From NCBI RefSeq assembly GCF_017316125.1, contig NZ_JAFLWA010000027.1, positions 1 to 52,331 on the forward strand: a DNA stretch of 52,331 nt, written 5' to 3'. The notes beneath the pieces were generated by a model, which was not told the origin of the DNA, made no database searches, and saw only the letters and a program-made list of their open reading frames with translations. A program made the translations under genes and the position numbers. Positions 16,168-40,783 of the stretch are shown in pieces (the first letter of the stretch is position 1; each line of letters starts with the position of its first letter). Source of the DNA: Enterococcus sp. DIV0660C. GTDB taxonomy: Bacteria; Bacillota; Bacilli; Lactobacillales; Enterococcaceae.

Positions 16168-16428
16168 TCACACAAAAAATGCCGGAAAGATAAACACGAG
16201 AACTAAATATATCGGAAATACTAACATCATGATACTATTTGCTAAAAGAATAACTGTCCTATAAGTCCCTCTTTTCAATCTTATCGCTATTAATAGTCCG
16301 ATTGAACCGATTAATGGTGTAAAGACAGATAGAGGAATTCCTAATGAAAAAAAAGATTGTTGAAGAAACATAACTATGCCTAATAAAATAGTAATTACTG
16401 ATAAAGTAATCCTTACTTTTTCATTCAT
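16168..16428 (-). CDS. small three-span membrane protein, 86 aa
   Basis: A hydrophobic protein starting MNEKVRITLSVIT with three membrane segments (about 6-24, 29-49 and 58-82) joined by short basic loops such as RLKRGTYR. The ATG at 16428 overlaps the stop of the phospholipase-like gene (TGATG), so translation is coupled. I do not recognise a family. Its size and position as last gene of the operon would suit an immunity or membrane-protection function against the phospholipase, or a transport accessory role, but that is inference. Confidence 0.65.
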   Translation of the reverse strand: MNEKVRITLSVITILLGIVMFLQQSFFSLGIPLSVFTPLIGSIGLLIAIRLKRGTYRTVILLANSIMMLVFPIYLVLVFIFPAFFV

Positions 16429-16934
16429 CAACTGAATACAACATATGCACCTGCAGCAACCGCATATTTATAACTTAACTTGTTTGTACTATTCATAATA
16501 GCCTTCAACCTTGCCCGAAAATTTTTATTACAAGTTGTATTATTTCCGCCATGTATATAACAGTAATCATGATACATACATGCTGTATCTAAATCATCAG
16601 TAGGCGTATTTCCTTTTCCTGCATTTCCATAACCACAATAGTTGCCATAAATTAAAAATGTTGCTCTAGCACTTATACTTCTTTCTGTTGAGTCAAATGA
16701 TTCAATTACATAGCCAATTTCGATAATATAATCCTCTACACCATCTAATTCTGCAGACTCAATATCAAAATACTTGTTACCTTCATTATCCACATAAGTA
16801 TATTGTTCAACAACAGAAATAATATCTTCGTTTTCTGGTGTTAATTTTTCATTAACTTCTGCAGTTGCAGTAATACCACCTATTGTAAAAATACAAGTTA
16901 ATGCTAATAATACTGTTAATATATTTTTTTTCAT
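16428..16934 (-). CDS. secreted phospholipase A2-like protein
   Basis: A 168-residue exported protein: signal peptide about 1-26, a pro-like acidic region to about 92, then a compact PLA2 core. YGNYCGYGNAGKGN is the calcium-binding loop, and PTDDLDTACMYHDYCY contains the catalytic His122-Asp123 pair, an almost textbook match to the secreted PLA2 signature. Four cysteines (100, 119, 125, 135) allow two disulfides. The ATG at 16934 is preferred to 16940 because AAGGAG is seven bases away. It is the middle gene of three overlapping genes. The gene is much more AT-rich than its surroundings. Activity on phospholipids is predicted from motifs, not shown. Confidence 0.85.
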   Translation of the reverse strand: MKKNILTVLLALTCIFTIGGITATAEVNEKLTPENEDIISVVEQYTYVDNEGNKYFDIESAELDGVEDYIIEIGYVIESFDSTERSISARATFLIYGNYCGYGNAGKGNTPTDDLDTACMYHDYCYIHGGNNTTCNKNFRARLKAIMNSTNKLSYKYAVAAGAYVVFS

Positions 16935-16936
16935 TT

Positions 16937-17473
16937 TCATACTCCTTTTTTTATGAATGATGCAAGCCCATCTTTTTCAGGATTAAATACTATTTTTTTA
17001 CCTTTTGAATGATTTAATCTTACTAAAGTTGGAACTTGTGTGATGCCATATTCATTGATTAACTCTTCATAATGTAAATGATCCTTATCATTAGTATCGA
17101 AATAATATATTTTTCGATCAGTATGTTCTACTATTGGCGTTAGCGTTTGAAGAAAACCTTGACAAACTGAACAGTCATTCCTACCAAAGTAAAGCAAAAT
17201 ATTATCTTGATTCAATAAATATAGTTCGTGACTGTTCATTATTATCAATTTATTTTTATCTTCTAAATTAGCAATCTTTTCATCATAAATTTTAACTTCT
17301 TCTTGCATATTTTGTTTTAACTCTATTTTTTCTGAATTTATATGTTGCAATCTGTTTGGTATCTTTTCAAAATAAAAAATAAAATATCCACCCCCCATCG
17401 TTATTAAAAGAACTAAACAAAATATTACGAAAACAAACCTCCTTCTTCTCATTGAGTTCTTTTTCACCACCAA
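16937..17473 (-). CDS. membrane-anchored thioredoxin-like protein
   Basis: A 178-residue protein: basic N-terminus, one membrane anchor (about 13-34), a likely coiled-coil spacer (about 41-75), then a thioredoxin-fold domain with active-site CSVC at 101-104 (YFGRNDCSVC) and the cis-proline QVPT at 147-149. It resembles bacteriocin-accessory and thiol-disulfide oxidoreductase proteins acting outside the membrane. The stop overlaps the next gene's region, so it heads the operon with the cysteine-containing phospholipase. The start is uncertain: TTG 17473, GTG 17470/17467 or ATG 17452 are all possible, none with a strong ribosome binding site. Confidence 0.78.
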   Translation of the reverse strand: MVVKKNSMRRRRFVFVIFCLVLLITMGGGYFIFYFEKIPNRLQHINSEKIELKQNMQEEVKIYDEKIANLEDKNKLIIMNSHELYLLNQDNILLYFGRNDCSVCQGFLQTLTPIVEHTDRKIYYFDTNDKDHLHYEELINEYGITQVPTLVRLNHSKGKKIVFNPEKDGLASFIKKGV

Positions 17474-19350: not shown

Positions 19351-20013
19351 TTAATGTGTAGCATTTGTAAAACGATACCCACGACCATGAACCGTTTGGA
19401 TATAGTTTGCACTTCCCGCAACTTCTTCGATTTTCTTGCGAATATTCTTGATGTGCGTATCAATCACTCTTCCCGATCCTTCTTCATTGCCCAATAAAAT
19501 CAATAATTCTTCACGAGAAAAAATTCGTAAAGGATGGTTCAACAGCAAACTAAACAAACGATACTCCGATTTTGTTAAAGAAAGTTCTTGTTCATGTAAT
19601 AAGATCACTTGCTTTTCTTCCAACACTTGGAACTTCTGATAAACAGGCTGATTATTAGTTTTTAATTTTTTTTGCTTCAATAATGCTGAGCGCAAGGATT
19701 CTACTTTTGCCTTCATTAATTCAAAACTAACAGGCCAAGACCATAAAATGTTTACACCTTTTTGGAATAAAACAATTTTTTCTTGCTCGGAAAGTGGTTC
19801 GGTACAAGCAACAACTAATGGAAAGCGACTCGCAACTGATTCTGGGAGCTCTGCCAAACGATCATCCATAATAAGTAGGACATCTGCTGATTCATTATGT
19901 AATTTCGCTAGAACGGATTGATAACTCACTTTTAACTCTAACTGCTCTTTTTGCAATCGTTTCATTATTGAAGACAGTGTTTTTTTATTTTTCGTAAATA
20001 TTTTTATATGCAC
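19351..20013 (-). CDS. orphan OmpR-type regulator with degenerate receiver domain
   Basis: A 220-residue protein. The C-terminal winged helix is convincing: LTKSEYRLFSLLLNHPLRIFSREELL, then DTHIKNIRKKIE and VHGRGYRF. The N-terminal domain has the receiver fold and a candidate Asp (VLLIMDDRL, residues 50-51). It lacks the acidic pair after strand 1 (IFTKNKKTL instead) and lacks the conserved Lys (NILWSWPVSFE where YxxKPF is expected). Phosphorylation by the usual route is therefore unlikely. No kinase gene is adjacent. The start is GTG at 20013 with AAAGGAGGAA before it. It is divergent from the M23 hydrolase gene, a possible target. Confidence 0.85.
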   Translation of the reverse strand: MHIKIFTKNKKTLSSIMKRLQKEQLELKVSYQSVLAKLHNESADVLLIMDDRLAELPESVASRFPLVVACTEPLSEQEKIVLFQKGVNILWSWPVSFELMKAKVESLRSALLKQKKLKTNNQPVYQKFQVLEEKQVILLHEQELSLTKSEYRLFSLLLNHPLRIFSREELLILLGNEEGSGRVIDTHIKNIRKKIEEVAGSANYIQTVHGRGYRFTNATH

Positions 20014-38736: not shown

Positions 38737-39636
38737 ATGAAATTATCGACCTTAACCTATTTTGTTGAAGTTGCTACTGAGGGTAGCTTTACAAAAGCTT
38801 CTCAAAAATTATACATTTCACAGCCGACCTTAAGTAGACGAATCCAAGAATTAGAAACAGAACTTGGAGTCAAACTATTTATTCGAACAAGCCATTCTCT
38901 TACCTTAACCAGTGCTGGTAGACAATTTCTGGTTGAAGCAAATGATCTTTTGAAACGTGTCGATCATTTAACACACCTTTTTGATCACCAGAAAAGTACC
39001 GAAAGTCATTCACATCTTTTTCGGATTGGTTACCTCCCTAATTTCAATATGGGAAAAATGTTTCAGCTATTCGAACAATTTAAATCAGAACATACTAACG
39101 TCAAGTTCGTATTGAAACAAGATACACCTATGAACCTGTCTGAGGGACTTTTAAAAGATGAATATGATATGGTCTTTAACCTTTCCAATTATTTTCAACC
39201 AAATAAGTCACTCGAAACCATTTTATTTATGAAAAATCATTTACAAGTTGCAGTTCCGGTTCATCACTTATTGAGTCATCAAAAAAATGTTGATTTCTCC
39301 GAACTAAGTCAAGAAACATTCATTCTTCTCGAAAGACAGCAATCTCCGATTATTGTTGATTATGTTATCAATCAATTTATCAACTACGGTTTTAATATCA
39401 AAGCAAACTCTTATGTAAAAAATCTTGATGAAGGATTGTCAAAAGTATCTGTCGGCGATGGTTTGGCCTTTCTATACTCAGGAATGGACGATGGAACATT
39501 AGAGGAAAGGTACCATATCAAAATTATTGATTTAAAAAAGAACCAGACAAATCAAGATATCGTCGCTGCTTTTACTCGAGAAAAAAATAGCGGACTTTTT
39601 GGAGAACTAATTCACTTCTTAAAGGTACATTCCTAA
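38737..39636 (+). CDS. LysR-family transcriptional regulator
   Basis: A 299-residue regulator with an N-terminal winged helix (MKLSTLTYFVEVATEGSFTKASQKLYISQPTLSRRIQELE) and a substrate-binding-like domain from about 90, with FRIGYLPNF. The ATG at 38737 has TGGAG nearby and matches the family start; the in-frame TTG at 38722 is less likely. It lies 75 bases after the CocE-type gene, in the same direction, and ends before a strong terminator. It may regulate that gene or the bacteriocin genes further on, but there is no direct evidence. Confidence 0.92.
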   Translation: MKLSTLTYFVEVATEGSFTKASQKLYISQPTLSRRIQELETELGVKLFIRTSHSLTLTSAGRQFLVEANDLLKRVDHLTHLFDHQKSTESHSHLFRIGYLPNFNMGKMFQLFEQFKSEHTNVKFVLKQDTPMNLSEGLLKDEYDMVFNLSNYFQPNKSLETILFMKNHLQVAVPVHHLLSHQKNVDFSELSQETFILLERQQSPIIVDYVINQFINYGFNIKANSYVKNLDEGLSKVSVGDGLAFLYSGMDDGTLEERYHIKIIDLKKNQTNQDIVAAFTREKNSGLFGELIHFLKVHS

Positions 39637-39750: not shown

Positions 39751-39797
39751 AAAAAAGTATCCAGAAAGAACAGGATGTTCTCTCTGGATACTTTTTT
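39751..39797 (+). terminator. terminator of the LysR gene
   Basis: AAAAAGTATCCAG with inner AGAACA pairs with TGTTCT and CTGGATACTTTTTT. This separates the regulator from the bacteriocin transcript. Confidence 0.88.
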
Positions 39798-39955
39798 AAG
39801 TTTTATTCCTTAATTACATAAAAACCATCACATTTTTATTGCTATCATGATTTAAGACCAAAAATTATCTCTTTGAGGACAACTTTTACAAGTAATTTAT
39901 TTGTCATGTTATGGTTCAACTGTAACAAAAATCTCTTTAAGGAGCGTGTTTACTC

Positions 39956-40180
39956 ATGCGATATAAGAAAATGTTAACCCTAACAGAAATGCAACAAACA
40001 ATTGGTGGAGGCGCGAATAAAACACAAAAATGTATTGCTGGAGTTGCAGGTGGATTAATTACCGGAGGTGTAGGCGGTGGCATAAAAGGATTCGGCGTAG
40101 GCGGACCTTGGGGAGCTGCAGCAGGGGGCGTACTTGGTGGTGCTGGTGCAGGATTAGCTGCAGCGGCGACTTTTTGCTAA
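39956..40180 (+). CDS. class IIb bacteriocin peptide A precursor (ABP-118 beta-like)
   Basis: A 74-residue precursor. The double-glycine leader ends LTEMQQTIGG at 17-18, giving a mature peptide of 56 residues. The mature part carries many GxxxG/AxxxA helix motifs, Cys26 (QKC) and a C-terminal Cys74, plus GGPWGAAAGGV. The segment C-x-AGVAGGLI...GGPW...AGG...C resembles the beta peptide of ABP-118/salivaricin-type bacteriocins. AAGGAG lies nine bases upstream of the ATG. A weak extended -10 (TGTTATGGT at 39907-39915) precedes it, typical of inducible bacteriocin promoters. Its stop overlaps the next start. Confidence 0.88.
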   Translation: MRYKKMLTLTEMQQTIGGGANKTQKCIAGVAGGLITGGVGGGIKGFGVGGPWGAAAGGVLGGAGAGLAAAATFC

Positions 40181-40371
40181 TGGATAATCAATCAAAAAAA
40201 ATCTGCTACTTCTTGATTAGTGACGTGATTCTTTGTATCGGAACACTAATTTTGTTTCTTTTTTCGGGACTGTCAGTTAAGGAAGCTTTGCGATCTCCAA
40301 TCATGATTTTTGAATATATTTATGTTACTGTTACTTGGATTATTTACTTTTTTACGAAACAAAAAAAATAA
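40180..40371 (+). CDS. probable bacteriocin immunity protein, 63 aa
   Basis: A 63-residue protein with two membrane segments (about 11-30 and 41-59) and a basic tail TKQKK, starting MDNQSKKICYF. The ATG overlaps the stop of peptide A (TAATG), so it is made with the bacteriocin. Position between the two peptide genes and small membrane topology fit bacteriocin immunity or accessory proteins. No family is recognised beyond this. It is the only candidate immunity gene in the locus. Confidence 0.72.
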   Translation: MDNQSKKICYFLISDVILCIGTLILFLFSGLSVKEALRSPIMIFEYIYVTVTWIIYFFTKQKK

Positions 40372-40385
40372 TAGTGGGAGGACAT

Positions 40386-40607
40386 ATGGACAATAAACGT
40401 GTATTATCAACAAAGGAAATCCAAAATATTACCGGAGGCGGATTAAGTAACTTCGGAAAATGTGCAGCTGGCACATTTGGAGGAATGTTTACAGGTATGG
40501 GAACACTTGGACTAGCTGGCTCAGCTATTGGACCCGCGGGTACTGTACTTGGAGGGACTTATGGTGCGCTTGGTGGAGCATTGACTGGTGCTGCAGCTAG
40601 TTGTTAA
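40386..40607 (+). CDS. class IIb bacteriocin peptide B precursor (ABP-118 alpha-like)
   Basis: A 73-residue precursor. The leader ends STKEIQNITGG at 17-18, giving a mature peptide of 55 residues. The mature part is hydrophobic, with FGGMFTG, IGPAGTVLGG, GALGGALTG, Cys26 (GKC) and a C-terminal Cys73. FGG...AG...GPAG-VGG...GGALT...C resembles the alpha peptide of ABP-118. GGGAGG lies five bases upstream of the ATG. Together with peptide A it should form a two-component pore. No strong terminator was seen before the bidirectional one at 40748. Confidence 0.88.
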   Translation: MDNKRVLSTKEIQNITGGGLSNFGKCAAGTFGGMFTGMGTLGLAGSAIGPAGTVLGGTYGALGGALTGAAASC

Positions 40608-40747
40608 AAGATGCGCATTTGTTTAACAAACCCTAAGAAATTCTGCGACTGTTACACATTTTTATTTCTATGTTCCCGAAAGGAATCATCACTCCTTTTT
40701 ATATCATAAGAGAGATAAAAGAAGCAAAATCTAAAAGTCATTGATAC

Positions 40748-40779
40748 AAAAAAAGTCTCAATCGTTGAGACTTTTTTTG
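40748..40779. terminator. bidirectional terminator after the bacteriocin locus
   Basis: AAAAAAAGTCTCAA-TCG-TTGAGACTTTTTTT, with T tracts on both strands, lies between convergent genes. Confidence 0.9.
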
Positions 40780-40783
40780 TATG

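Follow-up and report, generated by a model that had tools for sequence, protein, structure and literature searches.

A two-peptide bacteriocin cassette in Enterococcus sp. DIV0660C, very probably of the ABP-118/gallocin A subgroup and most likely served in trans by an EntF-type locus

We identified in Enterococcus sp. DIV0660C a three-gene cassette that very probably encodes a two-peptide bacteriocin of the ABP-118/gallocin A subgroup. For export and induction, the peptides most likely depend on an EntF-type locus that acts in trans from another contig (C31) of the same genome. The cassette lies in a 52,331-nt stretch of DNA (contig NZ_JAFLWA010000027.1), here called the window, and spans from a putative promoter at 39851 to a terminator-like hairpin at 40744-40782. 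Its features are:

39753-39795, no strand assigned: inverted repeat resembling a terminator, in the gap that separates the cassette from the upstream LysR-type gene (stem of 20 pairs; minus-strand call)
39851-39864, plus strand: putative response-regulator repeat, first half (by matrix score)
39873-39886, plus strand: putative response-regulator repeat, second half, 22 bp after the first
39910-39915, plus strand: candidate -10 element TATGGT, weak, placed by eye where related promoters have theirs with respect to the repeat
39956-40180, plus strand: P0001, beta-type precursor (74 aa; 18-residue double-glycine leader, mature peptide of 56 residues with Cys8, Cys56 and one proline, Pro33)
40180-40371, plus strand: P0002, two-span protein, probable immunity protein (63 aa; from operon position and 62% identity to its plasmid counterpart)
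40386-40607, plus strand: P0003, alpha-type precursor (73 aa; 18-residue double-glycine leader, mature peptide of 55 residues with Cys8, Cys55 and one proline, Pro32)
40744-40782, plus strand: terminator-like hairpin closing the cassette (terminator call)

A preliminary description had reported two double-glycine precursors flanking a two-span membrane protein, and the translations bore this out, with the 63-residue P0002 between P0001 and P0003. The two precursor genes and the small putative immunity gene lie in one transcription unit, in which the stop codon of P0001 and the ATG of P0002 overlap by one base and P0002 and P0003 are separated by 14 bases. Double-glycine leaders follow a characteristic residue pattern, and both leaders were found by reading to carry hydrophobic residues at -12 and -7 and a glutamate (E) at -8. 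Predicted cleavage after G18 gives mature peptides of 56 (P0001) and 55 (P0003) residues, as first described, and the cysteines previously noted at residue 26 and at the last residue of both precursors are also present, Cys26 corresponding to mature residue 8. P0002 has two hydrophobic stretches (by eye), matches no family among the Pfam and NCBIfam models and does not resemble the short ABP-118-locus protein with which it was compared; it is probably the immunity protein. Upstream of the cassette is a LysR-type gene (38740-39636), for which a search of 14 other genomes from the genus gave nothing at E 1e-40, so the neighborhood may be accessory.

For comparison with ABP-118, we read its alpha and beta sequences from the pMP118 record and compared each alignment score with those of 1000 shuffles, also with the cysteines held fixed. 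P0001 aligned with ABP-118 beta at a score of 74 and P0003 with ABP-118 alpha at 73, and with either type of shuffle none of the 1000 reached these scores. The cross pairs scored 60 (reached by 1/1000 shuffles, and by 2/1000 with cysteines fixed) and 48.5 (3/1000 and 5/1000), so that each peptide aligned best like with like, which supports the ABP-118-type assignment first proposed for the cassette. Local BLASTP matches to ABP-118 were short (12 and 21 residues). Both precursors fell under the cut-offs of the NCBIfam lactobin A/cerein 7B model TIGR03949 (P0001 14.7 bits and P0003 10.3 bits; cut-off 21.5) and the Pfam bacteriocin model PF10439 (11.2 and 18.0 bits, respectively; cut-off 27.1). 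The plasmid orthologue of the beta peptide (P0008) passes TIGR03949 with 23.9 bits, while ABP-118 alpha and beta themselves gave no match to this model at E 0.1. Neither P0001 nor P0003 matched a solved structure at E 1.

A copy of the cassette was found in the Enterococcus faecalis plasmid LR962590.1, a record without gene annotation that contains the same three genes in the same order; this recurrence and the mostly synonymous differences show the trio to be more than chance open frames. Mature P0001 differs from its plasmid copy by 2 non-synonymous (2 residues) and 21 synonymous codons, and mature P0003 by 3 non-synonymous (3 residues) and 22 synonymous codons. With dN/dS of 0.017/0.85 for beta, 0.043/0.78 for alpha and 0.25/0.81 for P0002, the comparison reveals purifying selection on the cassette peptides. 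The leaders are far more diverged (non-synonymous codons 9/19 and 9/18). On the plasmid, the trio adjoins a C39 exporter, a kinase, a regulator and an EntF-like inducer. We also observed that the plasmid's inducer/bacteriocin promoter region is duplicated (L011, 7200-7570 and 9400-9770) with the window-type trio behind one of the copies, suggesting that the duplication allowed capture of the trio by the regulon.

A third copy, in genome G187, has the same gene order and adjoins an inducer, a kinase and a regulator. Its beta peptide is shortened to a mature length of 25 residues, and the start of a C39-peptidase exporter frame downstream ends beside a transposase-like frame (L038, 11827-13144); for both reasons the locus appears degraded, and the shortened beta means that not all copies keep both long peptides. 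Beyond these, relatives were scarce. A search of the family with P0001 matched 5 of 105 genomes; in the four besides the window's own, the match covers the leader and the opening residues of a different mature peptide. Across the taxonomic order, 395 genomes yielded 5 with matches for A1 and 4 for A2. G187 held the only full-length close match to P0003 outside the window's genome in these searches of the order, and among plasmids LR962590.1 was the sole record retrieved with P0001 and P0003. Viral contigs gave no confirmed P0003 relative and no DNA-pattern match; in genome contigs, alignment A4 produced 43 pattern stretches, none confirmed by tblastn, and a DNA pattern produced none. These negative searches carry little weight because the peptides are glycine-rich and the BLAST low-complexity filter may hide relatives; for example, a mature ABP-118 alpha query missed pMP118, which encodes ABP-118 alpha. 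A search of full-text literature found no paper with any of five stretches of P0001 and P0003 in its running text, as distinct from figures or supplements, and the available text of PMC9000605, PMC10891205, PMC11750935, PMC8229437 and related literature names no such enterococcal pair.

Having seen no exporter, inducer or kinase beside the cassette, the preliminary description had placed export and regulation elsewhere and called for a genome look-up for a C39-peptidase ABC exporter. This expectation was upheld, as the sole C39-peptidase match in the genome lies outside the window, on contig C31, in a complete-looking locus. It encodes the exporter (716 aa; TIGR01193, 834 bits, cut-off 524), an accessory protein (464 aa; TIGR01000, 407 bits, cut-off 259), a regulator (248 aa) that we read as LytTR-type, a kinase (431 aa) and an EntF-family inducer (41 aa; 74.3 bits, cut-off 35). 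The best NCBIfam models for the regulator and kinase were AgrA and AgrC, both under cut-off. Compared with plasmid LR962590.1, identity is 80% for the exporter, 69% for the regulator and 46% for the kinase. The cassette is at least 13 kb from these genes even if contigs C20 and C31 abutted, and we infer that its export and control would be provided in trans. EntF-family genes were found in 9 of the 105 family genomes. The C31 locus also encodes another bacteriocin precursor, P0004 (L008, contig C31, 8771-8989), of a type present in 2 of 105 genomes, followed by a small membrane-protein frame on the other strand. Over its first half, mature P0004 is nearly letter-for-letter identical to an enterocin B-like peptide of genome G025; over its second half it departs from that peptide, as though the module bounded by the two cysteines had been swapped.

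We searched for a control element with a matrix built from five inducer-gene promoters and seeded by eye. Its training pairs came from nine EntF loci, of which L012 and L013 were merged (identical boxes), L015 and L018 were dropped because no good site lay 260 bp or less from their inducer gene, and L020 was dropped because the pattern did not find it. The top-scoring sites in the plasmid locus were the plasmid promoters, which were absent from training. In the window, the site at 39851 scored 14.7 and ranked 2 of 104590 positions, a rank that did not change when the training site contributed by this genome was removed. One site scored higher (15.2, at 19968), and no role is known for it. When the upstream region was dinucleotide-shuffled 5000 times, the score of the cassette repeat was reached in 15 cases. 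From the first half-repeat to the ATG of P0001 is 105 bp, the usual distance in EntF-type regulons and the same as in front of the plasmid trio. Among other bacteriocin promoters, the best site lay at 104-106 bp in 6 of 8, a count that includes one promoter twice because the plasmid's two promoters are copies; these six scored 19.6-27.0, all above the cassette repeat. The two that did not fit were those of P0004 (5.9, at 107 bp), though it is right beside the pheromone gene, and G187 (13.8, at 187 bp). Scanning the plus strand upstream of P0001 for a constitutive promoter revealed no sigma-70-like site in the region covered, and comparing short words between the upstream regions in the window and on C31 gave no useful signal. 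A possible precedent for remote regulon members comes from G025, of the same genus, whose loci L015 and L041 we take to be the enterocin A/B/X regulon: there, entB-like and entX-like genes are preceded by the repeat at 106 bp, although the EntF-family gene is about 187 kb away. The cassette repeat may well be the binding site of the C31 regulator.

Both mature peptides (Cys 8/56 in P0001, 8/55 in P0003) have the length, weak charge (net +1 and 0, respectively, inside the cysteine span) and placement of two cysteines near the N and C ends that mark the ABP-118/gallocin A subgroup. A single proline divides the cysteine span into arms of 25 and 23 residues in P0001 and 24 and 23 in P0003. Since each arm is about the length of one membrane crossing, the natural reading is a hairpin that would turn at the proline and be stapled at its open end by a predicted disulfide. 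In a pattern scan of the fetched loci, covering 25 double-glycine peptides with two or more cysteines and leaving out the 45-kb flank L028, a centred proline was present in 14 of 14 peptides with a cysteine span of at least 29 (spans 29-48, proline at most 1.5 residues from the centre), compared with 0 of 5 with spans of 15-24. Random placement would centre the proline with a chance of 0.06-0.16 per peptide; since the peptides were fetched by similarity and are mutually related, the 14/14 count is not itself a probability. ABP-118 beta and a G047 peptide, which the pattern missed, also fit the rule. According to the available text of PMC10100652, gallocin A has disulfides in both peptides, loses activity on reduction and is modelled as helical hairpins, and ABP-118, brochocin C and thermophilin 13 are likely members of its disulfide subgroup. 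The preliminary description had suggested that an end-to-end disulfide would set the pair apart; the idea is sound, but as a distinguishing feature it belongs to this already published subgroup. A more speculative thought, which we hold to be possible but doubtful, is that the cysteine-stapled, proline-centred hairpin is one shared fold cutting across the class IIb/IId divide, with ABP-118-type pairs and enterocin B-type single peptides of one regulon as modular and possibly combinable versions of one membrane element; P0001, P0003 and P0004 would then be three hairpins sharing one transporter and acting as a set.

The same anatomy also bears on whether P0001 and P0003 are a pair at all. They could be two independent one-peptide bacteriocins of the enterocin B-like kind that share an operon and one immunity gene without complementing each other, given that the regulon also includes enterocin B-like peptides with this Cys-to-Cys, proline-centred build, and that P0001 and P0003, at 40% identity to each other, could be duplicates. 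Against this, their best alignments are with opposite partners of the proven ABP-118 pair, and in 3 of 3 copies the two genes have stayed together in unchanged order, separated by the gene for one small membrane protein, which leaves independent action quite unlikely in our judgment. Peptides with double-glycine leaders can also act as signals, and P0001 and P0003 might be signal or surface peptides that do not kill. Their length, glycine-rich membrane-like composition, pairing and similarity to ABP-118 all speak otherwise, and the C31 locus already encodes a short EntF-type pheromone, making this explanation very improbable.

It is somewhat easier to imagine, though still unlikely, that the cassette is silent, having been separated from its export and control genes on its move to this site, and is now either not expressed or not secreted. 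No export or control gene is adjacent, the promoter repeat scores lower than those of relatives, and the absence of a close match to the neighboring LysR-type gene in the rest of the genus sample suggests recent acquisition. Yet the frames are complete, amino acid changes are few and silent ones many, the promoter repeat keeps the 105-bp distance seen in the plasmid, and G025 likewise has regulon members far from its EntF-family gene. We therefore favor a functional two-peptide bacteriocin that most likely kills competing bacteria. In the mechanism we propose from these gene data, the EntF-like pheromone from C31 would activate the C31 kinase and LytTR-type regulator, and the regulator would bind the 22-bp-spaced repeat 105 bp before the first cassette gene. 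The C31 C39 exporter would then cleave both leaders after the double glycine and export both peptides, in each of which a Cys-Cys bridge would close across a helical hairpin turning at the central proline. Together, P0001 and P0003 would enter the membrane of related bacteria and permeabilise it, and P0002 would shield the producer.

Elsewhere in the window, we considered a thioredoxin-like protein, P0019 (16937-17473, minus strand), as a disulfide helper for the cassette. It has a weak PedC/BrcD match (31.4 bits, cut-off 120) and 28% identity over 109 residues to the pMP118 thioredoxin, but we left it unassigned because other thioredoxin-like matches exist in the genome and a phospholipase A2-like gene adjoins it. 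The two neighbors (16428-17473, minus strand), a secreted phospholipase A2-like protein (PF00068, 36.1 bits, cut-off 32.1) and a membrane-anchored thioredoxin-like protein with a CSVC motif, form a possible toxin-like enzyme with its own disulfide helper, which may also serve the bacteriocins. In genome G174 (L023, 616-1686), we noted another cysteine-rich peptide pair preceded by a thioredoxin-like protein (PedC/BrcD 69.6 bits, cut-off 120) in a gallocin-like arrangement.

Cysteine-bridged two-peptide bacteriocins are a small group, which the cassette extends by an enterococcal member that has a near-identical copy on a plasmid. For an orphan operon, the cassette now comes with a concrete prediction of the exporter, pheromone and promoter element serving it from a distance, and genome mining that expects an exporter beside the peptides would overlook or misread cassettes of this kind. 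Mutation and mass spectrometry offer an inexpensive way to probe the central-proline rule.

Among known systems, ABP-118 of Ligilactobacillus salivarius UCC118 (pMP118) shares like-with-like matches of both peptides, two cysteines near the ends, a central proline, double-glycine leaders and a system of pheromone, kinase, LytTR regulator and C39 exporter. It differs in that the window peptides exceed those of ABP-118 by about 10 residues, their genes flank the probable immunity gene with beta in first place, and the export and control genes are on another contig and not in the same cluster; the pMP118 locus also has a thioredoxin-family gene, while none was found among C31 open reading frames of at least 45 aa in the 20 kb read. 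The plasmid LR962590.1 trio differs from the window in its adjacent exporter, kinase, regulator and inducer, its place behind a duplicated promoter, and its diverged leaders. The presumed enterocin A/B/X regulon (G025 L015, L041) has the EntF-family inducer and the 22-bp-spaced repeat about 106 bp before remote bacteriocin genes, but other mature peptides. Gallocin A (GllA1/GllA2) of Streptococcus gallolyticus, as the available text of PMC10100652 describes it, likewise consists of two long, weakly charged peptides with two cysteines each and a small immunity protein; it is the founder of the disulfide subgroup, with disulfides, killing and immunity established by experiment; those of the window pair are predictions from sequence.
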